Origin: an uncultured Candidatus Peregrinibacteria bacterium
Lineage (GTDB): Bacteria; Patescibacteriota; Gracilibacteria; UBA1369
Length of the DNA: 32,695 nucleotides
Assembly (NCBI GenBank): GCA_937858825.1
Contig: CALMAI010000032.1
Location: forward strand, 1 to 32,695
Direction of reading: 5' to 3'
Both the position numbers and the translations under genes were made by a program. Positions within the stretch are counted from its first letter, which is position 1. Every line of letters begins with the position of its first letter. Below the pieces are notes generated by a model. The model ran no database searches and was not told the origin of the DNA. It saw only the letters and a program-made list of their open reading frames with translations. Shown here one piece after another: positions 894 through 19,295 of the stretch.

Positions 894-2093
894 ATGACAA
901 AAACCAAACAACGCCCATACTGTAGCGAAATTGCTGCACTCCAACCTTGGAAAGCAATGAGCTTGTCTCTGCTCCTTGTCGCCACTTTTTTTATGGGGAA
1001 CCACACAGCTTTGGCTGGAAGTCAGGTAACATTGACTGTAAAAAATCCCGATCCCGTACAAGGAAATCACAGCTGGTTTATTTATGAACAAGAGGCTGGA
1101 CAAACAATTGAAGACGTCGCAACGCTCAAAAACTTTAGCGACGAACCAGCCAACGTTAACCTCTATGCCGTTGATGCAACCAGCAGTGAAACCGGTAGCT
1201 TCATCCTTAAATTCAGAGAAGAGGAACAAAAAGGAATCGGATACTGGTCCGACGTGGAAACCAAATCAGTCACTATCGAACCACAACAAAGCGTCGACGT
1301 CCCTTTCAAAATTATCCTTCCAGAAGGCGTACCTCCAGGACAATACCTTGGAGGCCTTATTGCCGAAACAGGATATCCACGTGAGGTCGACGATGAGGAG
1401 CACGAAACATGTGTAGAACAGAATCTTTGTGGAACCAACATTTCAGTTCGCACCCGGATTGGAACCCGCATCTACCTGACAGTGCCAGGAAAGACCTATG
1501 AAGATTACAGTCTCACAGATTTTTCAGCCGTAAAAAGCATAACTGGAACAACCAAGTTCGAATTCCGAATCGAAAACAACGGAAACGTTGCCTACGAACC
1601 TGTTGCCCTTATCAATGTTTATGACGGCATGGGCAACCTCTACGAACAGATCGAGAAAAAGCTGGGGACCAGCTCTCCGGGAACAGTTATTCACCCGGTT
1701 GTTAAAATGAAAAACCGACCACTCATTGGAAACTTTAGCGCTAAAGCAGTGGTGACATTTGAACGAAAATTCGGATCGTCTGAATTCCATTCATCAAGCC
1801 CGACAGAAGAACTATCGCTCGAATTCTGGGTTATGCCATGGGAGATCATTTTTATAGTGCTCCTTCTTTTGGTCGCAACCGCAGGCGTTATTCTCCAACG
1901 AAAACGAGTATGGGAAAAATATATGCAAAACGCAGAAGCCTATGTTGTTCAGGAAGGCGAAGATATTGGAGACATCGCCAAAAAACATCACATTAATTGG
2001 AAACGATTGGCCAAATTCAACAAACTCAAACCTCCTTATTTGATCGACAAAGACCAGACATTAATGGTCCCAAAACAAAAAAATGAACAATAA
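894..2093 (+). CDS. DUF916/WxL-interacting-like membrane protein with C-terminal LysM
   Basis: Exported membrane protein of 399 residues and first gene of operon A. A hydrophobic signal segment spans about residues 22-42 (ending ALAG). Residues about 45-160 form a beta-sandwich with the DUF916 pattern: a WFIYEQEAGQ strand, TLKNFSDEPANVNLYAVDA, a G-F-L strand, and the hallmark PPGQYLGGL. A second beta domain (about 200-310) contains IENNGNVAYEPV, as in DUF3324-type regions. A transmembrane helix (about 317-334) is followed by RKR and a LysM domain (about 349-394; YVVQEGEDIGDIAKKHHINW). Known WxL-interacting proteins bind WxL proteins at the wall; that role is inferred here. The LysM is predicted to be cytoplasmic, which is odd. 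An alternative start at 957 has GGAAAG upstream and gives a shorter signal peptide. The 3' end overlaps the next gene by 11 bases. Confidence 0.75.
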   Translation: MTKTKQRPYCSEIAALQPWKAMSLSLLLVATFFMGNHTALAGSQVTLTVKNPDPVQGNHSWFIYEQEAGQTIEDVATLKNFSDEPANVNLYAVDATSSETGSFILKFREEEQKGIGYWSDVETKSVTIEPQQSVDVPFKIILPEGVPPGQYLGGLIAETGYPREVDDEEHETCVEQNLCGTNISVRTRIGTRIYLTVPGKTYEDYSLTDFSAVKSITGTTKFEFRIENNGNVAYEPVALINVYDGMGNLYEQIEKKLGTSSPGTVIHPVVKMKNRPLIGNFSAKAVVTFERKFGSSEFHSSSPTEELSLEFWVMPWEIIFIVLLLLVATAGVILQRKRVWEKYMQNAEAYVVQEGEDIGDIAKKHHINWKRLAKFNKLKPPYLIDKDQTLMVPKQKNEQ

Positions 2094-5000
2094 AAATAAA
2101 AATTATTTCGGACTTCTCATTATTCCGTTGATCGGCGTGATATTCAGCGCCTATCAACTTGCGCGAATTAGTTGGAACAGTGGTCCAGTGGCTCATGCCG
2201 CCATTACCATTGGACCGGAAAACAATGCCAACTCTCAACCCATAATCCAAAGCGTGGGAACAGAGCATAAACCGGACATTGCGATGGACGACCATGGGAA
2301 TTCTATTGCCGTGTGGTCAAGGATGGATGACCTTGGCGCGAACGAAAGCCTTTACTTCCGCAAGGTTGATATTGAAGGAAACCTTATCGGATCAAGTGAA
2401 ACAATTATAGGTGCTACAGATAACATAAGCCGGGACATTCATCCTGCTGTAGCTATGGATAAAGACGGAAACTATGTCATCGCCTGGGAATTTTATGCCA
2501 ATTCAGGTACCGATGGTGAAATTTTACTCAGTGCGTATCAGGCCGACGGAACCCAAATAGGTGGAAGCGCTATGGTCGTTAACACAACAGGGAATCGTGG
2601 TAGTGGAGTCGAAACGTTTCCCGATATTGCTATCGATTACGATGGTCCAGACATTGCTGGAGGCAGCACTGATACACCTGTAATTGTTACCTGGCGTTCC
2701 ACGAATGATGGCGGCACAACACAGAACATTTATGCCCAACGCCTGGACATTGATTTCACTCAAACAGCAGCGCTCCCAACACTAGCAGGATCAGAAATTA
2801 CGGTAAATACCTCTGCTGGAACAACCAACACCCGCAGTAGTGTGGCCATGAACAATTTGGGAGAATTCATGGTCGCTTGGAACAATAGCGATATCTATTA
2901 TCAGGCATATGCTCAAGACGGAACATCTATTGGCAGCAACACAGCCATAACATCACAGGGATTTGCCAATTTGGAAGCACCTTCCGTTGCCACAGACAAG
3001 GCTCCCCGCCTAAGTCTGGATGATGACACGGATCGACAGTTCATCATCGCCTACCCGGATCAGGACGCCAGCTCATATGAGCTCTCTGCTGAAATCATTA
3101 CCTGTACCGACCCGGCACCAGCCAACGGAACTGACACCGATGTAACCTGTAGTCCAAATGGACTCCAATTGGTTGCGAACGACAACACCACCAACACCCC
3201 ACGACAATGGCCAAACATCTCTGCTGATTACCTTGGAAACTTTACCGTTACCTGGTCAGAACGGGATGGGGCAAACTGGGACATTTACAGCCAAAGCTAC
3301 AACTATCAGGGAAAACGGATTGGCAGCAATGTCAGCATCACAGCAGGAGCCAGTGTTCCACAATGGTCAGCAGTTAAAATGAACACAGACGGATTCTATT
3401 CAATTGTATGGGGTAGTGGCAGCAACGTTAAAGAACAAAACTTCATAACAGAAATTTTCAAAACCGAAAACGAAACATCAACAACCCCAATAAGTACCCA
3501 GACAGGAACCAATGTCGACGCCGCAGTAGCGCCAAACGGAAACATTGCATTCGTTTACAGAACAACTGGTACCGTTCCGGCAGAAGCTGTTCGCCTCACC
3601 CTTAAAAGATATGACTCAAGTGCCTCACCAAGCTACATAGATGTAAAAACAGCCGAAATCATTTCTTCAGCATCAGGAGCCGACAATCCATCTGTTTCTT
3701 TCTTTAAGGACACCTCTGGATCATCAGTCGGAAACTTTATTGTAACCTGGGAAGACAACTCATCTGGAACCAAAAACATTTATTACCAACTTTTCGACGA
3801 AGCCGGAGATCCAATTGGATCAGCCACGGCAGTTAATGCCAGCGCAAACCTCCAACAAAATGCTCACGTCGTAGCAGGAGTTTACACAAACAGTGGTGGA
3901 AGCGACATCGAGGAATTTGCCGTTATCTGGCACGATTCCACTGCTCAAAGCATTGAATCCGCATACCATAATACAAGTATGACCTACAATCAGATCTATA
4001 GCGGATGTACCGACTGTGTCGCAGGCGGCGTTGATATGGATCCAGACACTACTGACATTGTTTATGTATGGGAAGATAGCATTGCCGGAATACGCGAAGT
4101 CCTCATACAACAAGCAACTGGAGGATCTCTTGTTGGGTCTGATGCACAGGTCCCTTCTACTGGATCTGAAAATGTCGACCCGGACGTTGCATTCGTATCA
4201 GGAGGTCGCTATGTCGTCACTCTCACCGGTCTCAGCGGAGCAGACAGCGATGTTTTTGCAAAACTCTATGCCTTTAGTGCCGGAGGACCAACAAGTGCAG
4301 GTCTTCACTACCCTCTTACACAATACTCACAGGCTGAAGCCCGCGATTTCGCAACATCTATTGCGGCAGACATAAACTCAAATCAATTCCTAGTTGTCTG
4401 GGGTGATTCACCGGCAACAGCAGAAGATATGATTTTTGGACAGTTCCTTCAATTCACTGGCGGCGGAACATATGGATTCGAACCATTCGGACCAACCTTC
4501 CGCATCAATTCAACTATCAACTCCGGACAAATTCTCCCATCAGCCGACATAAACCAACGTGGACAAACAGCCGTAGCCTGGGAAGGAAACTTTGAAAGCA
4601 CCGGAGGAAACGACTCAAGTACAGCAATATATCAACTACTTCAAAGTCCCCTCGTTCTACTGGGAGTAGACAAATTTGAACCAGTCGCTCAGCAGGAAGT
4701 TCAGGCAGGAGGACAGTTCCTGGATGTTCCAACATCCGTTACCTTCCCATCAGTGCCGGTCAATATTACACAAGACACCGTTCAGGAAATATCAGTTCGT
4801 GATGCCATTTATGGAGGAGACGTAAAATATGTGGAAATTCAGGATGCAACCGGTGTCGACTTTACTCTCACTATTCAGGCAGACGACTTCTTTGCTGCCG
4901 CGGATGGAAAAGCCTACATCAAAAACGATGAACACTTCCGCGTCAAAAACTGGGATAACGATCTCACCGACATCGATGCCGGAGACTGTGACGACACAAA

Positions 5001-5247
5001 CACTCCAACAGACGCAGATTTCTGCTTCCAGACAGTCGAATCAACCAATACTCCAACAGCATTTACCCTCAATCCCGCGACCCAAAACTACACGTTTATC
5101 GACACACAAAAGGTTCTGGCAGAAAAAACCGGAACAACCAACAACGAAATTGGTCGATGGCGCATCTTCCCAGAGTTTGAGATTACCGTACCTCCATTTA
5201 TTGCTCCGGGAACACACAGCGCAGAGATCACATTTACACTCACATAA
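2083..5247 (+). CDS. Large secreted repeat protein with C-terminal WxL-like domain
   Basis: Secreted protein of 1,054 residues. Residues 1-40 are a long signal peptide ending VAHA. Residues about 55-860 contain roughly a dozen or more repeats of 45-60 residues with the pattern P-x-(I/V)-A-x-(D/N)-x-x-G-(N)-x-(I/V)-x-x-W, then an I-Y-x-Q/R strand and a G-x-x-I-G-S turn; examples are IAMDDHGNSIAVWS and VAMDKDGNYVIAWEF. These look like beta-propeller blades. The last 190 residues or so carry the anchor domain of this locus: VEIQDATGVDFTLTIQADDF, then EITVPPFIAPGTHSAEI and a terminal TFTLT. The gene overlaps its membrane partner upstream by 11 bases and is 3 bases from the next partner gene, so co-expression is likely. 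It is probably a surface display or adhesion protein; the ligand is unknown. Confidence 0.75.
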   Translation: MNNKNKNYFGLLIIPLIGVIFSAYQLARISWNSGPVAHAAITIGPENNANSQPIIQSVGTEHKPDIAMDDHGNSIAVWSRMDDLGANESLYFRKVDIEGNLIGSSETIIGATDNISRDIHPAVAMDKDGNYVIAWEFYANSGTDGEILLSAYQADGTQIGGSAMVVNTTGNRGSGVETFPDIAIDYDGPDIAGGSTDTPVIVTWRSTNDGGTTQNIYAQRLDIDFTQTAALPTLAGSEITVNTSAGTTNTRSSVAMNNLGEFMVAWNNSDIYYQAYAQDGTSIGSNTAITSQGFANLEAPSVATDKAPRLSLDDDTDRQFIIAYPDQDASSYELSAEIITCTDPAPANGTDTDVTCSPNGLQLVANDNTTNTPRQWPNISADYLGNFTVTWSERDGANWDIYSQSYNYQGKRIGSNVSITAGASVPQWSAVKMNTDGFYSIVWGSGSNVKEQNFITEIFKTENETSTTPISTQTGTNVDAAVAPNGNIAFVYRTTGTVPAEAVRLTLKRYDSSASPSYIDVKTAEIISSASGADNPSVSFFKDTSGSSVGNFIVTWEDNSSGTKNIYYQLFDEAGDPIGSATAVNASANLQQNAHVVAGVYTNSGGSDIEEFAVIWHDSTAQSIESAYHNTSMTYNQIYSGCTDCVAGGVDMDPDTTDIVYVWEDSIAGIREVLIQQATGGSLVGSDAQVPSTGSENVDPDVAFVSGGRYVVTLTGLSGADSDVFAKLYAFSAGGPTSAGLHYPLTQYSQAEARDFATSIAADINSNQFLVVWGDSPATAEDMIFGQFLQFTGGGTYGFEPFGPTFRINSTINSGQILPSADINQRGQTAVAWEGNFESTGGNDSSTAIYQLLQSPLVLLGVDKFEPVAQQEVQAGGQFLDVPTSVTFPSVPVNITQDTVQEISVRDAIYGGDVKYVEIQDATGVDFTLTIQADDFFAAADGKAYIKNDEHFRVKNWDNDLTDIDAGDCDDTNTPTDADFCFQTVESTNTPTAFTLNPATQNYTFIDTQKVLAEKTGTTNNEIGRWRIFPEFEITVPPFIAPGTHSAEITFTLT

Positions 5248-5250
5248 AAG

Positions 5251-5889
5251 ATGAAAAAACTCCTTACCACAATTGGAACCAGCATCTTTCTGACAGCGCT
5301 CACAGCCCTGCCGGCCCATGCTGCAACAGGAGATTTCACCATCTACCCAACATATCAGCATGGAGATAACACCAGCTGGATTCTCTTAAAAGCCGAACAG
5401 GGACAAACCACCAAAGATTTTGTAACTATCGAAAACCTCACCAATGAACCACTTTCACTCAATTTAGAAATTCTGGATGCGAACGATGAAAGCGGAACAT
5501 TCCTTCTCAATGAAAATCCAACAAAGAAAAATCTGTCTGGATGGATGAGCATCGGCATGGATTCAATCGACCTTAAACCGCATGAGAAAAAAAACGTTCA
5601 AGTCGACTTCAACATTCCGGAAAACGCAAAAACACAAGAGTACAAAGCTTCAATTCTTGCATCAAAATCAGAAAAAAATGCCCAAAATATTCTTATAACA
5701 ACCAGAATCGGCGTCCGTGTTTATGCCAACATTATCGAACCAACAATGGCACAAACTAACATTTTCGCCACTCCCGCATACAGTCAGACAGCATTCTTTG
5801 TTTTAAGCCTCTTCGGAGTTCTGGCAGCAATGTTCTACAACCTCATTCACTACATCGAATCTAAAAAATATGCAAAAAAACAAGCGTAA
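5251..5889 (+). CDS. Short DUF916-like membrane protein
   Basis: Exported protein of 212 residues. It has a signal peptide (1-24, ending AHA), one DUF916-like beta domain (about 28-165; FTIYPTYQHGDNTSW, VTIENLTNEPLSLNLEILDA, and a V-D-F-N-I-P strand) and a transmembrane helix (about 179-197). The tail is short and basic (ESKKYAKKQA). Unlike 894-2093 it lacks both the second beta domain and the LysM. The canonical Gly-Gly after G-x-Y is replaced by EYKASI. It sits 3 bases after the large WxL-like gene and overlaps the next small WxL-like gene by 20 bases, an alternation that fits a partner or receptor role. Expression should follow operon A. The function is inferred. Confidence 0.7.
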   Translation: MKKLLTTIGTSIFLTALTALPAHAATGDFTIYPTYQHGDNTSWILLKAEQGQTTKDFVTIENLTNEPLSLNLEILDANDESGTFLLNENPTKKNLSGWMSIGMDSIDLKPHEKKNVQVDFNIPENAKTQEYKASILASKSEKNAQNILITTRIGVRVYANIIEPTMAQTNIFATPAYSQTAFFVLSLFGVLAAMFYNLIHYIESKKYAKKQA

Positions 5890-6487
5890 CATTTGGCTAG
5901 TAATTGCGACTTTAGGGCTTTTCAGCCTTAACTTCACCCCTGTTTTCGCACAACAGATGCTCATTCAGGTGGTTGGAGGAGGTTACCGGTTCGACGGACC
6001 TTCAGGCATCGTCTTTACGCCAGTACAAGCCCAATTTAGCCAGGTAGACAGCGAAGTAAACATTCGAACTATCACCGGTCCAGGCGGATACACCAACCCC
6101 CCAAACGCTGGAACAGAAGATGGATTCATATCAATATCCGACCAAAATGGAGGAGCAGAATTTCAAGTTGAAGTCAGCGCGTCCGGACCACTCACAAAAA
6201 CAACCTCACCAAACGAAACAATCCCACTTACCAATTTTCAGGTAAAAAATCTGACAACACAGATTAACGACGCGTTCGATGTACAAACCATTAACGGAGT
6301 AGATAGCGGATTCAGTCTTAACGGCTCACTCAATAGTTACACCGACCTGACAACCTCACGCATTCTTGGAACAGGAAGCGGAAGTCAGCCGGGAGAATGG
6401 AAATTCTATCCAGGATTCCGCGTTCAAATACCGTCTACAACCCCAATTGGAGTGTACGAAACAACCCTCACGTTCACCATAATCTAA
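5870..6487 (+). CDS. Small secreted WxL-like domain protein
   Basis: Secreted protein of 205 residues that is almost entirely the anchor domain. A signal peptide (about 1-27, ending VFA) is followed by ISISDQNGGAEFQVEVSAS, which matches the first WxL-like motif region. The C-terminus is the block FRVQIPSTTPIGVYETTLTF ending TII. The pattern V-P/I-P, G-x-Y, T-L-T-x-T is shared with seven other genes here. It resembles the small WxL proteins encoded beside DUF916 genes in Firmicutes, but Trp is absent from both motif positions. Its start lies inside the preceding gene, and its stop overlaps the next start by one base. Confidence 0.7.
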   Translation: MQKNKRNIWLVIATLGLFSLNFTPVFAQQMLIQVVGGGYRFDGPSGIVFTPVQAQFSQVDSEVNIRTITGPGGYTNPPNAGTEDGFISISDQNGGAEFQVEVSASGPLTKTTSPNETIPLTNFQVKNLTTQINDAFDVQTINGVDSGFSLNGSLNSYTDLTTSRILGTGSGSQPGEWKFYPGFRVQIPSTTPIGVYETTLTFTII

Positions 6488-8697
6488 TGATGAAAAAAGC
6501 ACTACAAACCATCATCGTATCAGCCATTGCCACAGTAACAATGTGGAATCTGGCCGCTGCACCGGTAGCAAACGCAGAGTTCTATAACTTTGGAACACTA
6601 GATGTAAAACCGATCCATGCAGATGAAGGATCAAACCAGGACTGGTTTGTAGAATACTTGGCACCTGGACAGCAGAAGCAGGAGGCCATTCAGATATCCA
6701 ACTTTTCTCCAGAACCAAAAGAGCTTTCCATTTACGTTGCCGACACCACAACAAACGAAGGAAAAACATTTCAAACCAAAAACCTTCACGAAAACTCTGA
6801 CGATGTATCCGACTGGATTCATCTTCCGATTCAAAAAATCACGCTCCAGTCAGGTGAAAGCCGTATTTTGAGCACCAACTTTATCATTCCTAAAAATGCA
6901 GGTGTGGGACTTCATACCGGAGCGATCATTGTCCGTGAAAACGGATCTGAATTTTCAATCGAAAAAGGTGTTCGTGTCTACATGAACGTTACCGGGCCGG
7001 TTATCGAAAATGGATCTATTCAATCCATTACATCAACACAAACCGGAACCCTCTACAAATTGAACGTTCAAACTGCAAACACCGGTACCGTCGATTACAA
7101 AACCGACTACACTGTCCAACTCCAGGATATTTTCGGAACAACTCACCAGACTGTTTCAACGACATCCCGAACCGAACCACAAACAACCCACCAGACCACA
7201 CTCAGCATTCAAAAACCAGCGTTTGGATTCTATAACTTGGTTCTCTCAAATGGATCAGCCGAAACCAACATTGGAACCATTCTTTTTGTTCCACTTTGGG
7301 CAATCGGAGCATTCATGATCCTCGTTCTCATTGCCATCAGACCAGAAACATTCACTATCGCAGCACTCCAAAAAGCATTCCAATCTTCAGAGCTCAAAAA
7401 AGGATTCGCATACTTTGGACTTCTTGCCGTCGTGGCAACCAGTGTAGCGGCGCAATCAAGCATCGACCCGACAACTGTTCAGGCACAAATAACCAGCGGA
7501 CCACCATCTGTTGGTCGAGGAAGCGTCAATCAGGACAACACTCCGACAACTCCTCAAAACGTGACTCAAAAAGACAAATCAGCAACCGAATATGTTCTCA
7601 CTATCAAGTGGGGAGAAGTACGCCGTGTTCATGTTCCAGGAAACAAAACAAAAGAGTGGCATGGCCGACTCAGTTTTCAAAACGCTCGCGTAACCACCTC
7701 CGAGCTTCTTCATTTTGAACGAACCGATCAAGCCGAGGTGAAGAGCAACAAAGCCGAACTACAATTCGACCTCCTCACAGGACCAGACAACGACGGCGTC
7801 ATACTCAACGTTCAAGCCGTTGGCAATCAAACCCCAACAGTTACCTACCAAAACACGGACACTGGTGAAGAGTTTGAACTCCAAATCACCGATCTGGTTG
7901 GATCAAGCAGTACTTTTGCCCAGGGACTCTGGGGAGTCCAGTTTGAAGCCGACTATACAGAGCAAGAAAAAGCGCGCCGAAACGTTATATCACTCACACA
8001 AGCCACAGAAGGTGAAGCAACACCAGACACGCTGGCAGAAGGCGAAGCAACACCACAACGGTTCGCACAAATCCCGGAACTCGAAAACCTTTTTGTAGAA
8101 GAACTTCCCGCAACCCGGGAACAGCTCACAGACTTCATTCTTAAATCTGACTACGTCGAAGAAGTGATTAATGAAGATTCAACACAAAAACTCCGAACCG
8201 ACTCTATTCTCATTCAGGCTTTGAAAGCAACGCCAGAAGTTCTCGAAGAGTTAACCGCAACACCAGACCTTAACTTTGTATTCGTACCAACAGAAGAGAT
8301 CAGTTTCCCTCCACAGGAGTTTTCATTTAACGAAAACAAAGAGTCCGAACAAAACCTGGGAACACTTATCTTTGTACAAAATACAGATGCTCCATGGAAT
8401 ACCTTTGTTGGAACAACCGATTTCCAACTTCTCTCTGGAGATCACATCATTCCGGCATCATCACTTACTGTTATTCCTGGTGAAGTAACCATCCTGACAG
8501 AAGATGGTGAAGAAGATATTAATCCTGGGCAAGAAAAGAAACTTACCGGCAGAGGTGATCGAACAACACTCATCAATGCCAACGCCACACGCGGACAAAA
8601 GAAAGCGTTTGTTCTCAATCCACGCCTTCGTGTACAAATTCCAAGTGGAACACCGGCAGGAACCTACCAAGGGGAACTCACCATCACAAGTTTGTAA
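6487..8697 (+). CDS. Natural fusion of a DUF916-like partner and a WxL-like protein
   Basis: One uninterrupted frame of 736 residues. Residues 1-30 are a signal peptide (ending ANA). Residues about 31-260 are a DUF916-like pair of beta domains (IQISNFSPEPKELSIYVADT; GLHTGAIIV). A first membrane helix spans about 266-284. A cytoplasmic loop with several Lys residues follows (285-306), then a second helix (about 307-322) ending SVAAQ, which looks like an internal signal sequence. Residues about 335-735 are outside: a KWGEVRRVHVP region of unknown type, an acidic helical stretch with repeated EGEATP, and a WxL-like anchor (WNTFVGTTDFQLLSGDHII; RVQIPSGTPAGTYQGEL, ending TITSL). The second helix might be cleaved, releasing two proteins. 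Start 6487 overlaps the previous stop (TAATG); 6490 is an equally good Met. Confidence 0.75.
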   Translation: MMKKALQTIIVSAIATVTMWNLAAAPVANAEFYNFGTLDVKPIHADEGSNQDWFVEYLAPGQQKQEAIQISNFSPEPKELSIYVADTTTNEGKTFQTKNLHENSDDVSDWIHLPIQKITLQSGESRILSTNFIIPKNAGVGLHTGAIIVRENGSEFSIEKGVRVYMNVTGPVIENGSIQSITSTQTGTLYKLNVQTANTGTVDYKTDYTVQLQDIFGTTHQTVSTTSRTEPQTTHQTTLSIQKPAFGFYNLVLSNGSAETNIGTILFVPLWAIGAFMILVLIAIRPETFTIAALQKAFQSSELKKGFAYFGLLAVVATSVAAQSSIDPTTVQAQITSGPPSVGRGSVNQDNTPTTPQNVTQKDKSATEYVLTIKWGEVRRVHVPGNKTKEWHGRLSFQNARVTTSELLHFERTDQAEVKSNKAELQFDLLTGPDNDGVILNVQAVGNQTPTVTYQNTDTGEEFELQITDLVGSSSTFAQGLWGVQFEADYTEQEKARRNVISLTQATEGEATPDTLAEGEATPQRFAQIPELENLFVEELPATREQLTDFILKSDYVEEVINEDSTQKLRTDSILIQALKATPEVLEELTATPDLNFVFVPTEEISFPPQEFSFNENKESEQNLGTLIFVQNTDAPWNTFVGTTDFQLLSGDHIIPASSLTVIPGEVTILTEDGEEDINPGQEKKLTGRGDRTTLINANATRGQKKAFVLNPRLRVQIPSGTPAGTYQGELTITSL

Positions 8698-10895: not shown

Positions 10896-11666
10896 ATGAA
10901 AAAACAAACTCTCGTTGCCGGTCTCGGCACACTCGCCCTCGCGGCAAACGTACTTCTTCCAAGCCTTGCGCTTGGTCAGGGATCCGATCCTCAGGCAGCC
11001 GAACAGGACATTGCTTGTGGAACACTTACTCTTAACGTTAACGCTGACAACGACTTTCAAATGACAGATTTGAACGTTAGTACATCAGCTCAGGACTCTT
11101 TCGCAAACCTTACTGGTTCTGGTTTTGCTGTAACATATCAGAGTGGAACGAGTGCTCTTCCAGAAGAAGCATTTGTTTACGTTGACGATGCTCGTACCGT
11201 TGGTACTGGTGCCGGTTGTGCAACTGATGGTACCGACGAAGGTTGGACCCTCTCTGCTGCCGCTACTGATTTCGCTTCTGGTGGTAACACTATTGCCAAC
11301 ACCAACTTCTATATTGCTACATCTCCAAATATAACTGCTCCTGCAGGATTTACTGAATATGAAGTAGTCGATGGTGATGACGAAAATGTCTACTACACTA
11401 CTGGTTATGCTGGTACACAGGATGCTGCTGCTCAATACAACCTTGCGAGCACTACAGACCTGACAACTGCTACTCCTTTCACTACAGAAAATGCTAGCCT
11501 TGATAGTGCACGAAACATCTTGAACAATGCAACTGGTGCTGGTACAAACGACTTTAAGTTCACTTCTGTTGGAACAGGACTTGCATACTATTTGAACGTT
11601 CCTGCCAACCAGGCTGGTGGTACTTATAGTTCTACTGTAACATTGACTCTTGCTACAGCTACATAG
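10896..11666 (+). CDS. Small WxL-like surface protein, predicted highly expressed
   Basis: Secreted protein of 256 residues made of a signal peptide (1-28, LALG/QGS) and one anchor domain. It contains a genuine W-x-L: DEGWTLSAAATDF (W117). The C-terminus is YYLNVPANQAGGTYSSTVTL ending TLATAT, where the second WxL has lost its Trp. Cys41 and Cys108 could pair. Its mature part aligns nearly end to end with the last 230 residues of 11798-14008. Codon use stands apart: by hand count 18 of 25 Gly codons are GGT, against 3 of 25 in the homologous part of the neighbour. With its own near-consensus promoter, 5' stem-loop and strong terminator, it is a good candidate for a major surface or coat protein. 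That is inference; no abundance data are available. Confidence 0.8.
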   Translation: MKKQTLVAGLGTLALAANVLLPSLALGQGSDPQAAEQDIACGTLTLNVNADNDFQMTDLNVSTSAQDSFANLTGSGFAVTYQSGTSALPEEAFVYVDDARTVGTGAGCATDGTDEGWTLSAAATDFASGGNTIANTNFYIATSPNITAPAGFTEYEVVDGDDENVYYTTGYAGTQDAAAQYNLASTTDLTTATPFTTENASLDSARNILNNATGAGTNDFKFTSVGTGLAYYLNVPANQAGGTYSSTVTLTLATAT

Positions 11667-11724: not shown

Positions 11725-11747
11725 ATCTACCTCTGAAGTAAAAAATA

Positions 11748-11756: not shown

Positions 11757-11797
11757 ATGGAGATAAAACATTTTCAAAATTTCATAAAAATATCACC

Positions 11798-14008
11798 ATG
11801 AAACGACGCATTGCTAAGCTTGTTTCAACCCTCTCTCTTATCGGTATGCTCAGTTCACTCGGAGTCTACCAAATAGCCCTTGCCGCCGTTCAGGGACAAT
11901 GGCCAAATTCATCATCCCCAAGTGACATTGTTATTTCCAACAACCCTCCGGATGAGACTGATCAGTTAGTAACCAGAACCAGCGACGGCAACTATGTCGT
12001 GGCTATGCTTTTTAATGGTCGCACAATTGCCACCAAAGTAGCTGAAAGTGATGGATCATACGTCCCAACATGGACTGGATCCATTGCCTCTTCCCTTCTT
12101 GGTGCGCCTTTGGGACTAGTAGCCGACAATAGTGGAGGCGTGTACATTGCTCAAAATATCGACAATGGAGGTGGAGATTGTAGTGTCGCCATTCAGCGAT
12201 TAGACTCAACTGGAAACTTTCAGTTTGGATTCCCTGGATTAGAAATAACCACAGGAAGCGGCTGTGAAGTATTCATGGACATGATTCCTGACGGAGCAGG
12301 TGGTGTATACGTAATATGGGGTAATGGTGGATCGAATTTAAACACATTCCAATCAACCGACCTATATGCCACAAGAGTAACCAGCGCGGGAGTCGTTGAC
12401 ACAAACTGGAACACCGGAGGATCCGGAACATGGCGTCCGCTTCAGCTACCGGAAACATCAGCTTCAACATCAAGTGAACACAGCGCTCAAATGGTAGCAG
12501 ACGGACTTGGTAATGTGGTGGTTATTTATGAAAGTTCAGACAGTAGTTTCGCTTTTGCCATAACAAAATTCGACGCCAACGGGAACATTGCCGGCTTTCC
12601 ATGGAACCTTCCCTTCAATCTAGATCCCGATAACAACGGAAGCCTTGGGCGTCATCTTGTCTCCGATGGTTCTGGTAACGTTTACATTGGATACCTGACC
12701 GGACCATTCGGTTCACCAAACACTGTAAAAGTACAAAAACTAGACAGCTCCGGATTCCCTCCTCAATGGGGAACCGGCGTAGTCGTAAGCAACACCAACA
12801 TTGGATCTTTCTCGGGAAATCCACGCATTACTCCAGACGGCAGCGGTGGAGTATTGGTTGCATGGCAAACAGCCGGCTCCGATAATGAAATGTACGGACA
12901 TCACGTCACTTCAGCCGGAGCCCTCGACACTGCCAACAATTGGTCTACCGCACCAATAGCTCTTTCCAACCTTGATACAAACCCATCGTGGTTTAACACC
13001 CTGGATCGCAAAACCATGCTTTCAGATGGAGCTGGTGGAGCATATGTTCTCTACAACTCATTTGAAGGAGGAGACGCGGCGACATCAAAACTCCAACACC
13101 TCAACAGCGATGGTACCGTTGAATTTACGGGTGATGGTACAACACTTGCTACAGGAGCAGGCATCACCGGAATTTTTGCAGTCATGACATCAGATGGCGG
13201 AACCGGAGTCGTTACCGTTTTCCAGGATGAAGGACCCGACGGTATGGATCTTTATGCTCAACATTTCGACGACACTACAAGTAGCGGTGGTGTTGGTGGA
13301 AGCGAAAATTCAGACGCAGAACAAGAAATCATTTGCGGGGCCCTCACTCTCAATGTGAATGCCAACAACGATTTTCAAATGACCAACCTTACCGTTAGCA
13401 ATAATACACAGGACTCCTTCGGAGCGCTCATCGGAGCTGGATTCGCAACTCCATACCAAAATGGAACCGACACACTGCCCGAAGAAGCATTCATTTATGT
13501 CGATGATTCACGAACTGTTGGAACCGGACCTGGTTGCGCAACCGATGACGTTGATGAAGGTTGGATCGTTGGACTCGAAGCAACCAATTTTATAGATAGC
13601 GGCGCAGTTGCCCCAGACATTCCTTCCAGTAATCTCTACCTTTTGGCAACTTCGAACATCACACCAGACACAAGTTACGGACCTGGATTCACCGAATTTG
13701 CTGGAGGCGGAGACGGATCTACCACCAACCTATTCTACACAACCGGATATTCAGGAACGCAGGACGTAGAAGTCCCTTACAATACGGCCGACACTACAGA
13801 CCTCACAAGCAGAACTTCATTTACCACCGAAAACGCATCTCTCGATAGTTCCCGCGTAATCATGGAAAACGTTAGCGGCGCAGGCGTAAATGACTTCAAG
13901 TTCGCCGCAATTGGAACCGGTATCGCCTACTATCTCAACATCCCGGCAAATCAGGCCGGAGGAAGCTATACCTCAACGCTTACCATTACGCTGATACCTG
14001 CTTCGTAG
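11798..14008 (+). CDS. Secreted propeller-like repeat protein with WxL-like anchor domain
   Basis: Secreted protein of 736 residues. After a signal peptide (about 1-30, ending ALA), eight repeats of about 55-65 residues fill residues 45-495. Each centres on (L/M)-x-x-D-G-x-G-(N/G)-V-x-(V/I), as in VADGLGNVVVIYESSD, VSDGSGNVYIGYLTG and TPDGSGGVLVAWQTAG, consistent with a beta-propeller. A short Ser/Gly linker leads to the anchor domain (about 507-736), closely related to all of the mature protein of 10896-11666: ICGALTLNVNANNDFQMTNL, DEGWIV at the first WxL position, and YYLNIPANQAGGSYTSTL at the end. The relation suggests domain duplication, with this gene adding a display module. Codon use is GGA-rich as in most neighbours, so expression is probably lower. 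Confidence 0.8.
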   Translation: MKRRIAKLVSTLSLIGMLSSLGVYQIALAAVQGQWPNSSSPSDIVISNNPPDETDQLVTRTSDGNYVVAMLFNGRTIATKVAESDGSYVPTWTGSIASSLLGAPLGLVADNSGGVYIAQNIDNGGGDCSVAIQRLDSTGNFQFGFPGLEITTGSGCEVFMDMIPDGAGGVYVIWGNGGSNLNTFQSTDLYATRVTSAGVVDTNWNTGGSGTWRPLQLPETSASTSSEHSAQMVADGLGNVVVIYESSDSSFAFAITKFDANGNIAGFPWNLPFNLDPDNNGSLGRHLVSDGSGNVYIGYLTGPFGSPNTVKVQKLDSSGFPPQWGTGVVVSNTNIGSFSGNPRITPDGSGGVLVAWQTAGSDNEMYGHHVTSAGALDTANNWSTAPIALSNLDTNPSWFNTLDRKTMLSDGAGGAYVLYNSFEGGDAATSKLQHLNSDGTVEFTGDGTTLATGAGITGIFAVMTSDGGTGVVTVFQDEGPDGMDLYAQHFDDTTSSGGVGGSENSDAEQEIICGALTLNVNANNDFQMTNLTVSNNTQDSFGALIGAGFATPYQNGTDTLPEEAFIYVDDSRTVGTGPGCATDDVDEGWIVGLEATNFIDSGAVAPDIPSSNLYLLATSNITPDTSYGPGFTEFAGGGDGSTTNLFYTTGYSGTQDVEVPYNTADTTDLTSRTSFTTENASLDSSRVIMENVSGAGVNDFKFAAIGTGIAYYLNIPANQAGGSYTSTLTITLIPAS

Positions 14009-14021: not shown

Positions 14022-14056
14022 AAAACGCTTTATCACAGCTGCCACTAATGATACAA

Positions 14057-14062
14057 TATAAT
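14057..14062 (+). promoter_or_regulatory. Promoter (-10) of surface-protein operon C
   Basis: A perfect TATAAT (14057-14062) overlaps an in-frame ATG at 14061, and a TACAAT lies at 14052-14057. The predicted +1 is about 14069, so the ATG at 14061 cannot be translated from this promoter and the start is set at 14088. No convincing -35 is visible. Confidence 0.65.
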
Positions 14063-14087
14063 GAGTACAACAAATAAACATCATCGA

Positions 14088-15173
14088 ATGAAAAAATCTG
14101 CTCTTCTTGTCATTCTCATGACTCTCGGCATGACTCTCTTCAGTAGTGGAGCTTCAGCAAACTTCAGCATATCTCCAAGTGTAGAGAACCGCAGCATGCG
14201 ATTCCAGATACAATCCGGCGCACAGCAGACAGGATACGCCTACATTCGAAACACATCCGAAGATGCCACTCAGGTTCATATTTATGCCAACGACGGAGCA
14301 AAAACCAATGATGGTCATTTCGCGGTAAAACTTCCAACCGAAGAACAAACCGGCCTTGGAATTTGGACCAGCTTTGACCAGGCAGTATACACCCTGGAAG
14401 GGAAAGAGAGCATGGACGTTCCTTTTCACATTATCATTCCACCTGGCATCCCGCCTGGAGTTTATTCAGGAGGACTGGCTTTGGAAGAGTTTAGCGAACC
14501 AGCTGGAGGTTCCGGTGGAGGAACTTCCGTTCAAATCAAAACCCGTGTGGTTGTACCGTTCTTTGTAGAAGTACCTGGAGAAAAAATATCAGACCTTGAA
14601 TTTAATAGTTTTTCTCAACAACAAACCGCAAATAACAAAGTTTTCTTTACCATGCAGTTCACCAATAATGGTAATACTGCCCTTATCCTGAAGCCAAGAA
14701 TTAAAATTAGCAGTTTTTGGGGTCTCTTTTCAGACACCATTACCGATGATGACATTCAGCTCTACATGGGAGAAAACACCGAATTCCGCGTCAATTGGGA
14801 AAACAAACCATTCTTTGGTTTCTTCAACGCCGAAGCTACCGTTGCATACTATGAAAACGATATCATCAACAATGTAGAAACATTAATCGGAGAAAAAACA
14901 GCAACTGTTTCCGTAACAGTTATTCCATGGATGACAATTTTTGTGCTTCTGATCCTCCTCATTTTGGTAGCGGCATTGATTATTTATCACAAAAATCGAA
15001 TTAAAAATCTGAAGAAAAACAGTTCTACCTACGTTGTTCAACAGGGAGAAACTCTCAATGAAATCGCCAAAAAAAGCGGCGTTAACTGGGAAGTTGTTGC
15101 CAAGCTCAATAATCTTAAACCTCCTTACGAACTAACCCCAAATCAAAAAATACTGATCCCACCTAAAAAATGA
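14088..15173 (+). CDS. DUF916/WxL-interacting-like membrane protein with C-terminal LysM
   Basis: Exported membrane protein of 361 residues and first gene of operon C. The start at 14088 (MKKSALLVIL) gives a normal signal peptide cleaved near ASA (24). The DUF916-like domain (about 25-135) begins FSISPSVENRSMRFQIQSGA, continues YIRNTSEDATQVHIYANDG and ends PPGVYSGGLAL. A second beta domain (about 165-275) includes FTNNGNTALILKPRI. The transmembrane helix (about 282-300) is followed by HKNRIKNLKK and a LysM (about 313-358): YVVQQGETLNEIAKKSGVNW, KLNNLKPPY. The order is the same as in 894-2093. The LysM is again predicted to be inside the cell. Its stop overlaps the next gene's start (ATGA), implying translational coupling. 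Confidence 0.78.
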   Translation: MKKSALLVILMTLGMTLFSSGASANFSISPSVENRSMRFQIQSGAQQTGYAYIRNTSEDATQVHIYANDGAKTNDGHFAVKLPTEEQTGLGIWTSFDQAVYTLEGKESMDVPFHIIIPPGIPPGVYSGGLALEEFSEPAGGSGGGTSVQIKTRVVVPFFVEVPGEKISDLEFNSFSQQQTANNKVFFTMQFTNNGNTALILKPRIKISSFWGLFSDTITDDDIQLYMGENTEFRVNWENKPFFGFFNAEATVAYYENDIINNVETLIGEKTATVSVTVIPWMTIFVLLILLILVAALIIYHKNRIKNLKKNSSTYVVQQGETLNEIAKKSGVNWEVVAKLNNLKPPYELTPNQKILIPPKK

Positions 15174-15805
15174 AAAAAGGTCTCATCTTTAGTTTTTTGA
15201 TAAGCCTCTTTTTGTCGCAAACCGCGTCGGCACAAAGTCTCTCAACATCCTTTGCCGCCGAACCAGCCTCAAAAAATGCCGTAGCTCCATCCATTTTTAT
15301 GTATGAAGCCAAACCGGGAACAACAATAGAAGACGATATCCTTGTTAAGAACATAAATGACAAGCCCCGAACTTTAACACTCTATCCTGCAGACGGACTC
15401 ACCGATGATGAAGGCAAACCAGCCTTCAAAACCTACGGAGAAGAGATGACAGAAATAGGAGCATGGGTGGAAACAGACGGTGAAGTATATGAGTTTGAAC
15501 CGGAAGAAACAAAAAAAATACATTTTCGAATCACCATCCCACAGGATGCCGAAGAAAAAGATTACAAAGGAGGTTTCGCTCTGGAACAAAAGTTTAACAC
15601 CGGCGCACCGGTGCAAACCGCGCTCCGCATCATGAAAAATATTGAAATCAAAGTCACTCAGACTCCGCAAGAAATACCACGATTCACCCCTACTGAAGAA
15701 ACACAGCAGCAACCAACCACATTTTTTTGGGTCACATTAGGAATATTTATAGCGAGCATGGCCTACGTCTTACTCACAAGAGAAAAAAAACATGGAAAAA
15801 AGTAA
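15170..15805 (+). CDS. Short DUF916-like membrane protein
   Basis: Exported protein of 211 residues: signal peptide (1-21, TASA), one DUF916-like domain (about 25-165; ILVKNINDKPRTLTLYPADG, FRITIPQDAEEKDYKGGFAL), membrane helix (about 185-203) and a short basic tail (TREKKHGKK). It lacks the second beta domain and the LysM, like 5251-5889. The start overlaps the previous stop by four bases, and the 3' end overlaps the following WxL-like gene by 14 bases, repeating the partner-then-ligand order of operon A. It is probably a paired membrane receptor for the downstream secreted protein; this is inferred from order only. Confidence 0.7.
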   Translation: MKKGLIFSFLISLFLSQTASAQSLSTSFAAEPASKNAVAPSIFMYEAKPGTTIEDDILVKNINDKPRTLTLYPADGLTDDEGKPAFKTYGEEMTEIGAWVETDGEVYEFEPEETKKIHFRITIPQDAEEKDYKGGFALEQKFNTGAPVQTALRIMKNIEIKVTQTPQEIPRFTPTEETQQQPTTFFWVTLGIFIASMAYVLLTREKKHGKK

Positions 15806-16712
15806 TCTAAAATTAGCAAGTATTGTCGGGCTGATTCTCAGCGCAGCAGCACTCATCGCAAATCCCATAATGAGCATGGCTCAGGGGAGCGACAACAGCA
15901 CTGCTGAACTAACAATTTCTGGGGGTAGTATCACCTACACAACCCCTGATGATTTTAGTTTTGATACTATATTTTTACCGCCATCCGGAAATCCCGACTT
16001 TTATATTTATAAAACACTCACTCCCCTTACCCCCGGGCAAATCATTGAAGTTGAAGATGCCGACGATGGCAATTTTGATTTTAATGTTACTATGTCCCTG
16101 AGTAATTTCACAAATACAAGCACAGGCCATATTATCCCTTTCACCAGCTTTGCCGCAGTCACCATTGCCAACAATACAACAGACGGTGTTGACTCCAGTA
16201 GCGGAAGCCCTCCAGCAGGAACAGCCAATGTCACAGCACCATGGTCATGCGATTGGAATGGGCAAAGTGGCGATCTGGAAACCAACTGTGGAGCCGACTT
16301 GGATTTTGCTGGTTTCACAGGAAACGGAACAACAGTACCAGCCGACCCAACCGTAGCGATCAGCGACACAGACACGACTATTACGGTAACGAGTAGCGCC
16401 GCATATGCCATTGGCGATGTCATTCAATTCAATAGTGGAGAATATGCCGTTGTGTCGAGCCTGGTATGGCCCAATCAAATTAAAGTTTACAGAGGAGTAA
16501 GCGGAACAAATCCAGCCCCTCAAAGTGCTGGATCAGGAATCACTAATATACATACACAAAGCACACAAATCACTATCTTAGTTGGACCCGAACCGGTAGG
16601 CGGACGCATTGGAGCCTACTCTGTGGGATTGGGAATTCGTGCCCTCCTAGAGCCACAATACTTGGATACTGGAAGCTATACCGGCCAAATCACCTTTACG
16701 CTCAGTACATAA
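15792..16712 (+). CDS. Secreted WxL-like protein with inserted tail-fibre-like segment
   Basis: Secreted protein of 306 residues with a signal peptide (about 1-30, ending SMA). Anchor-domain motifs are FDFNVTMSLSNFTNTSTGHI near residue 95 and GLGIRALLEPQYLDTGSYTG at the end, closing with TFTLST. Between them, residues about 186-252 form a compact segment, TTITVTSSAAYAIGDVIQF, YAVVSS, then VYRGVSGT, of a kind seen in phage tail and virion proteins (I-x-V-x-x-G-x-x-I, E-x-x-x-V, V-x-R-G-x-x-G-T). The WxL-like fold apparently tolerates inserts at this point. The start lies within the previous gene, and the stop overlaps the next start by one base (TAATG). Confidence 0.68.
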   Translation: MEKSNLKLASIVGLILSAAALIANPIMSMAQGSDNSTAELTISGGSITYTTPDDFSFDTIFLPPSGNPDFYIYKTLTPLTPGQIIEVEDADDGNFDFNVTMSLSNFTNTSTGHIIPFTSFAAVTIANNTTDGVDSSSGSPPAGTANVTAPWSCDWNGQSGDLETNCGADLDFAGFTGNGTTVPADPTVAISDTDTTITVTSSAAYAIGDVIQFNSGEYAVVSSLVWPNQIKVYRGVSGTNPAPQSAGSGITNIHTQSTQITILVGPEPVGGRIGAYSVGLGIRALLEPQYLDTGSYTGQITFTLST

Positions 16713-17383
16713 TGCAGAAAAGAACATCAAAACGACTAATATTTTTTGCCAGCATTTTCTTTCTGGCCACAAGCATCATGAGCGGAATGGCACTCGCAGC
16801 AACATCAACAATCACTGTTACCAGTTCACCCTATCTTTCATTTGTGACCATTCCTGAATCGTTCAGCATGGCGAACATTGTGGTGCCTACCAGTGATCTT
16901 GAGCTAACAAGCGATTCCAATGGAGTTCTCCCACCCAATCGTTGGCTGACTATTCAGGACAACCGAGGCTGCGGCGGATTGAACCTCCAGCTACAGGCAA
17001 ACGATTTTACTCCAATTTCAACAGAGATCACCACCAGTAACCTACGCGTGGTAACAAGCGCCAGCACTTTCTACGACGGACCTACCATTAATAACATAAC
17101 CTACAATTCCGGTTTCGTGGGAGATCAAACCGCAACTGCACCACTCAACGCCGGCACAATTAATTTTAGCAACCCTACAACCTTTACCTCTCTTGGTAAT
17201 AACTCCTTAGACGTTCCACGAGATCTTATCGACGGAACACTCACCGCCCCAACAGGACGCCAGGGCCAAATGCATTTTGGATTAAGCTTTTATCTATTCG
17301 TTCCAAAATACACATCTCCGGGAAACTACTATACAAAACTCACCTATACCCTTTCCGACGACACATCCGGCTCATGCCCATAG
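16712..17383 (+). CDS. Small secreted WxL-like domain protein
   Basis: Secreted protein of 223 residues with signal peptide (1-30, ALAA) and one anchor domain. LTIQDNRGCGGLNLQLQAND is close to the V-x-D-x-R-G-x-G-W-x-L-Q-V core of true WxL domains, with Leu in place of the first Trp. The C-terminus is FYLFVPKYTSPGNYYTKLTY ending TLSDDTSGSCP. It most resembles the outer parts of 9345-10721, including paired Cys positions. It is coupled to the previous gene by TAATG and is nine bases before a LysM-bearing partner gene. Confidence 0.72.
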   Translation: MQKRTSKRLIFFASIFFLATSIMSGMALAATSTITVTSSPYLSFVTIPESFSMANIVVPTSDLELTSDSNGVLPPNRWLTIQDNRGCGGLNLQLQANDFTPISTEITTSNLRVVTSASTFYDGPTINNITYNSGFVGDQTATAPLNAGTINFSNPTTFTSLGNNSLDVPRDLIDGTLTAPTGRQGQMHFGLSFYLFVPKYTSPGNYYTKLTYTLSDDTSGSCP

Positions 17384-17392
17384 TTTGACTTC

Positions 17393-18493
17393 ATGAAAAA
17401 ACTCCTCACATCATTAGCGGCAATAACACTTTTTCTTAGCGTTTCTCAAACCGCGTTCGCAGAATTTTCTGTTATTCCCGGATCACCACATGAACGTCAG
17501 TTCAACTTTGAAGTTGCGCCAGGAGAAAGCGTTGAAAGTAGTATTGTTGTAAGAAATCTCGGCCGTGACGATATCACCGTCGAAACCTACAGCGCCGACG
17601 GAACCAACAGCAGTCAGGGAACTTTTGCCCTCACATCCAAATCCCATGAACAAAAATTCCTCGGAACATGGGTCACTTTCGAAAGCCCACAAACAACCAT
17701 CAAAGCACAAGACGAGGTTGTCATTCCATTCACACTCACTATTCCGGCCAACGCCACACCAGGAAACTATGGCGGAGGGATTGCCGTAGAAGCTTCATCA
17801 GCAGAACTAAAAGGCGACGATGAACTGAGCCAGGCAGGAGCAGTCAGCACATCGGCACGCATCTACATTCGTACATTTGTATCAGTCCCTGGAGAAGCTA
17901 TAAACGACTACAGTTGGGGGGAATTCACCTTCAATGGTAAAAGCGATAACAATCGGTCACAGTTTCATTTCTCTTTCAAAAATAACGGAAATACCATTGC
18001 TATGGTTGAGCCAAAAATAACACTAAGTGGGCTCCCACCACTAAAAAAATCAGAGCTTACGCTTCCACAAATAACACTTCAGCCGGGAACCGAACTCAAC
18101 GACATTGAACTCCGTTGGGACGACCAACCATCTTTTGGATACTACCTGGCAACTGCATCAGTGACTTTCTCTGAATTCGACATCGCTCGCGATGAAAAAA
18201 TTAATTCAACCACTCAGGTTCGCCAAATCGGAATAAATTTAACGCCATGGTACATAACTGTTATACTGCTAGGAGTTCTTATCTTCCTTGTTGGATGGGC
18301 GGTCTACCACAACATGACCATGAAGCGCATCCGCACAGAATGGAAGTCGTACAAAATTAAGCCGGAAGACACTATCTCAAGCATTTCGAAAGAGTATGAC
18401 GTTGAATGGAAAAAGCTGGCAAAAGTGAACCGACTTAAAAAGCCCTACACGTTGAAATCGGGCAACACGATCCTGGTCCCTCCAAAAAAATAA
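17393..18493 (+). CDS. DUF916/WxL-interacting-like membrane protein with C-terminal LysM
   Basis: Exported membrane protein of 366 residues. A signal peptide (1-23, AFA) is followed by a DUF916-like domain (about 24-135; FSVIPGSPHERQFNFEVAPG, VVRNLGRDDITVETYSADG, TPGNYGGGIAV), a second beta domain (about 165-280; SFKNNGNTIAMVEPKI), a membrane helix (about 287-304) and a LysM (about 319-363; YKIKPEDTISSISKEYDVEW, KVNRLKKPY). It is the third protein in the window with this exact order, and its Gly-Gly-Gly after G-x-Y is the closest match to the DUF916 hallmark. It is nine bases after the preceding WxL-like gene, so it belongs to operon C. Confidence 0.78.
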   Translation: MKKLLTSLAAITLFLSVSQTAFAEFSVIPGSPHERQFNFEVAPGESVESSIVVRNLGRDDITVETYSADGTNSSQGTFALTSKSHEQKFLGTWVTFESPQTTIKAQDEVVIPFTLTIPANATPGNYGGGIAVEASSAELKGDDELSQAGAVSTSARIYIRTFVSVPGEAINDYSWGEFTFNGKSDNNRSQFHFSFKNNGNTIAMVEPKITLSGLPPLKKSELTLPQITLQPGTELNDIELRWDDQPSFGYYLATASVTFSEFDIARDEKINSTTQVRQIGINLTPWYITVILLGVLIFLVGWAVYHNMTMKRIRTEWKSYKIKPEDTISSISKEYDVEWKKLAKVNRLKKPYTLKSGNTILVPPKK

Positions 18494-18515
18494 AACGCTC
18501 AATAATCACCTCATC

Positions 18516-19295
18516 ATGATGAAAAAACTTTCGCTTCTGGTTGCGACCTTCACTCTTCTTGCACTTCCCCTTCAAGTCGGAATGGCACAAGACAATGTGG
18601 ATCTTCCTCCAGAAATTGCCAATATGCAAAGCGAAGGTTTTACGATCGTTCCAGCCAACCCGAATCCACCGGAATCCAGCAATTTCACATTCGAACTTGG
18701 ACCAGGATCAGAAGTGCGGGAAAGCGTTATCATTAAAAATCTTTCAACAGAACCTGCAACATTTTATCTCTACGGAGCCGATCCAACCTTTTCACAGCAG
18801 GGAACCAAAGCCTACAAAACCCGTGCCGACAGCGGTGAAGGTGAAGGTCAATGGATCACCTTTGACGAGCCGGAAGTCCTGCTTCAGGGAGGAGAGCAGA
18901 AACAGGCTTTCTTCACTTTAAAAATTCCACAAGACACATCGTTTGGAGAGTATCGGGCCGGAATCGCAATGGAAAAAACCAAGAAGGATATCAACAATCC
19001 AAACATCACCATTGCTACGCGTCTTGTCCTGCACACAGACATGACTATCACCAACATTCCACCAACAAAAGATGGTCAGGCGAACGGAGTGTGGCAGGCA
19101 TACTATTTCTGGATCTCTCTCACTCTCTTCCTGGTAAGTTTAGCGGCTCTCATCTGGATCACCTTCGAAGAAAACAAAGAAAAAGCTGCCACCAAAAGAT
19201 CCACAGCCAAGAAGAGCAAAACATCGTCTGCCAAAACCAAACGGACGACCACTCGCAAAACAACCAGAAAAACTACTACGAAAAAGAAGAAGTAG
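18516..19295 (+). CDS. DUF916-like membrane protein with Lys/Arg/Thr-rich cytoplasmic tail
   Basis: Exported protein of 259 residues and last gene of operon C. A signal peptide (about 1-24, MAQ) precedes one DUF916-like domain (about 41-175; FTIVPANPNPPESSNFTFEL, VIIKNLSTEPATFYLYGAD, GEYRAGIAM). The membrane helix spans about 196-215. Residues 222-259 are nearly all Lys, Arg, Thr, Ser and Ala, ending TTTKKKK, resembling a histone H1-type tail. By orientation the tail is cytoplasmic and could bind nucleic acid, ribosomes or anionic lipid. Its start (ATGATG; 18516 or 18519) is 22 bases after the LysM partner gene. The last 20 bases overlap the rdgB-like gene on the opposite strand. Confidence 0.72.
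   Translation: MMKKLSLLVATFTLLALPLQVGMAQDNVDLPPEIANMQSEGFTIVPANPNPPESSNFTFELGPGSEVRESVIIKNLSTEPATFYLYGADPTFSQQGTKAYKTRADSGEGEGQWITFDEPEVLLQGGEQKQAFFTLKIPQDTSFGEYRAGIAMEKTKKDINNPNITIATRLVLHTDMTITNIPPTKDGQANGVWQAYYFWISLTLFLVSLAALIWITFEENKEKAATKRSTAKKSKTSSAKTKRTTTRKTTRKTTTKKKK

Follow-up and report, generated by a model that had tools for sequence, protein, structure and literature searches.

The stretch of DNA analysed here, referred to as the window, comprises 32,695 nt (contig CALMAI010000032.1, positions 1 to 32,695 of the forward strand, assembly GCA_937858825.1) and stems from an uncultured Candidatus Peregrinibacteria bacterium. Between positions 894 and 19295 it harbors a cluster of 14 genes with a length of 18.4 kb which encodes seven domains of the WxL-interacting protein (WxLIP) type and eight of the WxL type; gene 6487 (genes are named by their start position) is a member of both groups, and the number of genes is thus 14 and not 15. 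We consider it probable that this cluster constitutes an expanded WxL/WxLIP system for cell-surface display in a peptidoglycan-making cell, the complex being presumed and its location predicted. A first-pass annotation, made from the sequence alone, had proposed a WxL-like system with paired membrane partners, and evidence from Pfam, profile comparisons, fold and gene pairing indicates that this system is real and was correctly named in kind.

Secreted WxL-like domains

Eight genes (2083, 5870, 6487, 9345, 10896, 11798, 15792 and 16712) had been assigned a common C-terminal secreted domain. Iterated profile searches covered 434 open reading frames (ORFs), taken from 37 related stretches in addition to the window. 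Seven of the eight domains served as seeds, and with each of them all eight were retrieved (i-Evalues of about 1e-8 to 1e-80), including 9345, the one that was not a seed; the assignment thus holds for every gene. The seeds 5870 and 2083 pulled proteins with the PGBD domain of the membrane partners into the iterated profile, which was treated as drift between immunoglobulin-like (Ig-like) domains. Domain maps were therefore taken from the 16712 profile, which showed no drift, its single marginal PGBD match falling short of the threshold for inclusion.

As a reference for genuine WxL domains from Firmicutes, a profile (A8) was used that comprises 11 plasmid-encoded proteins of Enterococcus and Paenibacillus with a WxL annotation. 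The family profile A2 matched it in hhalign with 98.1% (E 8.8e-14) over 185 columns, in an alignment that includes the signal peptide, and the profile A7, covering only the domain of the closest members, with 97.3% (E 2e-11). The controls, namely the WxLIP profile A1 described below against A8 and A7 against an unrelated protein of the window, gave 0.2% each. With 16712 and 10896 as single sequences, the C-terminal part alone was aligned to A8. The gathering cut-off of PF13731 (25 bits) is passed among the eight window genes by 10896 alone (31.7 bits), none of 2083, 5870, 6487, 9345, 11798, 15792 and 16712 reaching it individually. Homologues above the cut-off also occur in two other genomes (G009 and G020), and 8 of the 29 small WxL-like members are individually matched by PF13731. 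The match of 10896 and those of A2 and A7 together support the relationship to WxL.

Motif residues were counted by alignment columns in 81 profile rows. The Trp of the first motif is present in 14 rows (10 are gapped), including the window genes 10896, 11798 and 6487. That of the second motif occurs in three rows and in none of the eight window genes, being mostly replaced by Phe or Tyr, in agreement with the loss of the final Trp noted in the first-pass annotation. Since the two Trp-x-Leu motifs of the literal definition are not both conserved, the domains are termed WxL-like or diverged WxL.

Further architectures were observed in related proteins. In a relative (L109:7662-9281), the WxL domain is N-terminal and precedes a fibrinogen-C-like segment; the position of the domain is thus not always C-terminal. 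On contig C2 of the bacterium's own genome, an ORF of at least 4639 aa which is open at the contig end (L149:3631-17550, minus strand) combines kelch, TIG, DUF2341, LamG and invasin-D3-like domains with a C-terminal WxL-like domain. On contig C4, a 709-aa ORF (L150:3214-5343, minus strand) also ends in a WxL-like domain, and its N-terminus resembles that of gene 11798 in character. The repeat-rich regions of the large WxL-type proteins could be ligand binders.

Membrane partners of the WxLIP type

All seven genes described as DUF916-like with a membrane helix carry PF06030 (PGBD, DUF916). Five of them (894, 5251, 6487, 15170 and 17393) exceed the gathering score, and 14088 and 18516 lie below it with E-values of 1e-4 and 5e-5, respectively, which are still significant. 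A signal peptide and a C-terminal transmembrane helix are predicted in the WxLIPs by hydropathy and charge analysis. The profile A1, built from 33 WxLIP proteins with a LysM domain, matches the solved WxLIP1 of Enterococcus faecium (EfmWxLIP1; 9i1y, 9i25) over profile positions 40-274, and thus over both ectodomains (E 3.7e-9).

The fold supports the same relationship. The AlphaFold2 model of 6487 (pLDDT 72.6, pTM 0.37) has its best structural match in 9i25_C (Foldseek E 4e-13, Z 16.1, root mean square deviation 2.8 over 134 residues), the entry being titled as the WxLIP from E. faecium locus A bound to a long WxL. Chain 9i1y_A follows with Z 14.8, and the next unrelated Ig-like folds reach about 11.8.

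Organization of the gene cluster

All genes named by the first-pass annotation are present, with starts in frame with the listed ORFs; the longest ORFs open at 6397, 9309 and 14061, and the in-frame starts 6487, 9345 and 14088 were used. The 14 genes are as follows.

894..2093, plus strand: WxLIP-LysM protein; signal peptide, PGBD about 1071-1367, second Ig-like domain 1452-1766, transmembrane helix 1839-1895, LysM 1941-2075; PF06030 37.3 bits (cut-off 27.3), LysM 34.0 bits
2083..5247, plus strand: large WxL-like protein of 1054 aa; N-terminal region rich in repeats, WxL-like domain at the C-terminus (about 4714-5244); i-Evalue 4e-34 to the WxL-like profile
5251..5889, plus strand: short WxLIP; PGBD 5374-5667 and transmembrane helix, without second ectodomain; PF06030 31.7 bits
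5870..6487, plus strand: small WxL-like protein; domain about 5969-6481; i-Evalue 1.9e-30; E 9e-47 with profile A2, which itself includes this protein
6487..8697, plus strand: WxLIP-WxL fusion; PGBD 6643-6939, second Ig-like domain 6967-7269, transmembrane helix 1 7282-7338, basic loop, transmembrane helix 2 7408-7464, conserved uncharacterised region, C-terminal WxL-like domain 8251-8688; PF06030 33.9 bits
9345..10721, plus strand: WxL-like protein, 458 aa; domain halves 9615-9806 and 10407-10697 with about 200 aa inserted between them; two profile segments
10896..11666, plus strand: small WxL protein, 256 aa; first motif G-W-T-L retained; PF13731 31.7 bits (cut-off 25)
11798..14008, plus strand: large WxL-like protein of 736 aa; N-terminal region rich in repeats, WxL-like domain at the C-terminus (13346-13996); i-Evalue 2e-59; domain 60% identical to 10896
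14088..15173, plus strand: WxLIP-LysM protein; PGBD 14193-14489, second domain 14541-14864, transmembrane helix 14928-14984, LysM 15030-15164; LysM 44.6 bits, PF06030 22.5 bits (below cut-off)
15170..15805, plus strand: short WxLIP; PGBD 15296-15589 and transmembrane helix; PF06030 29.3 bits
15792..16712, plus strand: WxL-like protein, 306 aa; domain split by an internal insertion; profile segments 42-186 and 185-305
16712..17383, plus strand: small WxL-like protein; i-Evalue 3.9e-47
17393..18493, plus strand: WxLIP-LysM protein; PGBD 17498-17794, second domain 17858-18184, transmembrane helix 18248-18304, LysM 18350-18484; PF06030 38.0 bits, LysM 43.7 bits
18516..19295, plus strand: short WxLIP; PGBD 18678-18977, transmembrane helix, Lys/Arg-rich tail; PF06030 23.7 bits (below cut-off), detected with the iterated PGBD profile

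Neighbouring genes mostly overlap or lie at most about 50 bp apart, wider gaps preceding 9345, 10896 and 11798, and this tight spacing suggests an organization in one or a few operons. Overlooked in the first-pass annotation were the large insertion that splits the WxL-like domain of 9345, the lack of the second ectodomain in the short WxLIPs 5251, 15170 and 18516, and the LysM domains located C-terminal to the transmembrane helix in 894, 14088 and 17393; gene 6487 had been placed in both groups without a remark on its two helices.

The alternation of the two gene types that had been described holds as a tendency and not as a strict rule. Across the loci, 54 same-strand adjacent pairs are mixed WxLIP/WxL pairs; in 1000 shuffles within loci, such pairs averaged 25.5 and never exceeded 38.

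Fusion proteins, LysM domains and predicted topology

WxLIP and WxL are joined in 11 proteins, i.e. 6487 and 10 relatives, all of which possess two transmembrane helices before the WxL domain, so that this domain is predicted to lie back outside. For a physical WxLIP-WxL complex, the fusion is a supportive sign only. Following the second helix, the fusions share a conserved region (TIKWG ... DNDG; at about 7580-8000 in 6487) which is predicted to be beta-rich and has no Pfam match. An O-methyltransferase gene (PF01596, E 5.8e-26) follows the fusion on the opposite strand (8684-9268, minus), and an ORF assigned to one cluster with this gene adjoins the fusion in several relatives.

In 42 WxLIP-LysM proteins from the window and relatives, the 12 residues after the helix contain on average 3.6 Lys and Arg residues versus 1.1 in those before it, the count being higher after the helix in 36 of them, and the linker between helix and LysM has a median length of 15 residues (range 10-20). 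Together with the signal peptide, this charge bias places the PGBD outside and the LysM inside, in the cytosol, by prediction. An inside LysM and the two-helix fusions would imply a helix in the membrane of the producer, and hydropathy, charge and domain order accordingly point to the bacterium's own membrane as the site of the WxLIP helix. Such a location was deemed unlikely in the WxLIP study of 2023, which proposed insertion into the host membrane (PMC10599100).

Pfam LysM recognises 32 of the 33 A1 members (best E 4e-14), and the profile also matches LysM domains of solved structure, both from enzymes of the cell wall and from other LysM proteins. With a median isoelectric point of 9.9, the domain is strongly basic, and it contains a conserved stretch WKKLAKxNKLKxPY. 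The own genome encodes MurG above cut-off and mraY in pieces, so a lipid-linked peptidoglycan precursor is expected in the cell. With the cytosolic-side LysM of SpoVID, which binds lipid II (PMC10659427), as a precedent, we propose that the inside LysM ties the surface platform to sites of wall synthesis.

Distribution and evolution

PF06030 is present in all 13 genomes of the family and in 25 of 89 of the order. Throughout the family, the genes recur in the order WxLIP-LysM, giant WxL, short WxLIP, small WxL and fusion. In a tree of PGBDs, grouping is largely by position across genomes and not by genome, so the specialised copies appear to be older than the genera of the family. In a phylum sample of 380 genomes, 71 contain PF06030 and 27 a match to the WxL-like profile, 22 of these 27 containing both (about 5 expected; p 1.8e-13, or 2.3e-11 without the genomes of the same order), although these p-values overstate independence because the sampled genomes are mutually related. 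The excess of adjacent pairs, the co-occurrence and the family-wide gene order show that the pairing extends to relatives. In a Saccharibacteria genome, a secreted protein with a G-W-T-L motif is encoded directly before a WxLIP-LysM gene (81%), which is suggestive of a WxL-like partner. Matches outside the candidate phyla (Aquificota, Phenylobacterium and others) obtained from a 6-row alignment were discarded; the pattern was LysM-biased and they matched by LysM only.

The system had been called diverged or ancestral. Divergence is supported by the lost second Trp and the profile kinship; ancestry is not, the PGBD tree being weakly supported at depth and too weak for deciding it. Likewise, the occurrence outside Firmicutes stands, but its novelty does not, since DUF916 proteins are annotated in Actinomycetota, PF06030 matches in Thermotoga maritima, and about 9% of WxL have already been counted outside Firmicutes (PMC9772566). 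In the open literature, subscription papers and preprints lying outside the search, no paper linking WxL and Patescibacteria in substance was found. DUF916 and LysM are mentioned together in six papers, which judging by title deal with lactic acid bacteria. As far as these searches reach, the new elements are a LysM predicted to lie inside, fusions with two helices, the abundance of short WxLIPs, and the occurrence of the system in Peregrinibacteria as a large and conserved cluster.

Proposed mechanism and alternative explanations

In the proposed mechanism, small and large repeat-rich secreted WxL-type proteins would be held at the wall by WxLIP partners. Each of these would have one helix in the own membrane and, behind a signal peptide, a PGBD on the outside, which is often followed by a second Ig-like domain. 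Each PGBD probably completes the beta-sandwich of a WxL domain, as in E. faecium, where a strand from the WxLIP is predicted to do so (PMC10599100); for 6487, completion could occur within one chain or with a neighbouring protein. The LysM of three WxLIPs, about 15 residues inside the membrane, would most likely bind the sugar head-group of the lipid-linked precursor and thereby place the platform at sites of wall synthesis. The purpose would be adhesion or ligand binding. A farther-reaching idea, which we regard as possible but doubtful, is a transmembrane coupling in which an adhesin held by the WxLIP outside and a LysM on the precursor inside would link surface occupancy to wall synthesis via one helix in bacteria of the candidate phyla.

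Several results weigh against this mechanism. PF11797 (HBD, DUF3324), which the ectodomains had been expected to match in addition to PF06030, has no match in the window genes or in any A1 member, even though the alignment to EfmWxLIP1 spans the HBD region. The profile of WxL-like proteins did not retrieve the WxL chain of the solved complex among PDB sequences, and sequence searches of the PDB with WxL-like proteins yielded nothing credible. A weak model of the WxL-like domain (pLDDT 62) found no fold match at E <=0.001, with VIA Z <=5.3 to fibre, GH123 and pilin-type folds; that a WxL entry is missing from this list is not evidence. The pTM of 0.37 makes the 6487 model uninformative on docking between PGBD and WxL. 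In the LysM, the first acidic residue is commonly followed by a Thr, but often by Asn or Asp instead; this Thr may correspond to the one whose change disables the LysM of SpoVID. Finally, mraY is split at contig ends and stays below cut-off.

That the WxL-like proteins are unrelated beta-sandwich adhesins merely resembling WxL would account for the single window gene of eight above the PF13731 cut-off and for the fold search of the weak model without a clear match. It is nevertheless scarcely credible, given that the profiles match genuine WxL over their full length while the controls stay clean, that 8 of 29 small members are matched by PF13731, and that the genes co-occur in genomes with the partner family. 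A recent acquisition from Firmicutes, from which WxL has mostly been reported (PMC9772566), is very unlikely: pairwise identity among the members is mostly about 20-30%, the positional paralogues split before the genera of the family, related proteins occur in 71 of the 380 sampled genomes, and the E. faecium WxLIP falls outside the clades of the family, albeit in a weakly supported tree.

Two further alternatives concern the LysM. Usually, LysM acts on the outside. It might thus bind wall peptidoglycan there, with the helix inserted into the host membrane as proposed for the WxLIP of Firmicutes (PMC10599100). This we hold to be improbable, as a signal peptide is followed by one helix with the excess of Lys and Arg behind it in 36 of 42 LysM proteins, the spacing between helix and LysM is short and constant, and the two helices and loop before WxL in 11 of 11 fusions are most simply read as insertion into the membrane of the producer. 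A more serious rival leaves the system as described but has the intracellular LysM bind a protein or lipid in place of a glycan, which the strongly basic character of the domain with its conserved stretch makes quite conceivable. The LysM of SpoVID, too, binds a protein, SpoVK (PMC10659427). Recognition of 32 of 33 members by Pfam LysM and the matches to solved LysM of cell-wall enzymes argue for a glycan ligand.

Comparison with known systems

WxL surface systems have chiefly been described in Gram-positive bacteria of the gut. The csc clusters of Lactobacillales and Bacillales (E. faecium loci A-C, L. plantarum WCFS1) have in common with the Peregrinibacteria cluster small and large secreted WxL proteins with a partner of the order signal peptide-PGBD-HBD-transmembrane helix, as well as profile and fold similarity. 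They most commonly comprise one WxLIP and two WxL (PMC10599100), in contrast to seven and eight here, and neither a LysM after the helix nor two-helix fusions are mentioned for them. Isolated PGBDs, which are rare in csc clusters, are common in Peregrinibacteria, where in addition the second Trp is lost. DUF916 proteins of Actinomycetota, e.g. on plasmid pCPRO01 of Cellulosimicrobium protaetiae, share the PGBD, second domain and transmembrane helix, and the secreted neighbour on this plasmid ends in STLTLTL like 10896 and weakly matches the WxL-like profile (82%). However, they form a single pair without LysM, adjoining glycoside hydrolases. SpoVID of Bacillus subtilis resembles the WxLIP-LysM proteins in its cytosolic-side LysM, with lipid II as ligand there (PMC10659427) and a presumed one here, but lacks an ectodomain and a WxL partner and acts in sporulation, homology being proposed for the LysM only. 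The PGBD also resembles PapD-type chaperones of chaperone-usher pili (Z about 11), and the WxL-like model weakly resembles pilin-type Ig folds (Z about 5). No sequence homology to usher or pilin was found and the WxLIP partner stays membrane-anchored, so the likeness is an analogy only.

Surroundings and significance

Downstream of the cluster, and kept there in the family, lie genes for a Wzy_C ligase (19919, plus), a protein of unknown family (21348, minus) and an extracytoplasmic function (ECF) sigma factor (22510, minus); these genes at 19919-23085 are possible regulators. A right-handed beta-helix protein with SLH domains (25833-28172, plus) represents a second mode of surface anchoring in the window. 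A tmRNA gene (28240-28659, minus; tag ANNTNEGENATVAKLRALFAAAPVAA) is overlapped on the other strand by an ORF at 28419 whose start is doubtful. At the other end (1-178), a 24-bp tandem repeat with 7.4 copies lies inside an ORF (2-637, minus) with a bacterial Ig-like domain (PF02368).

How bacteria of the candidate phyla attach to surfaces is poorly understood. The WxL-like domain appears as a C-terminal display tag on many proteins, among them a giant adhesin-like one encoded in another part of the genome. It could serve for listing surface proteins across the phylum. Furthermore, with the two-helix fusions and the LysM predicted to be inside, the location of the WxLIP helix becomes testable against the published proposal of insertion into the host membrane.

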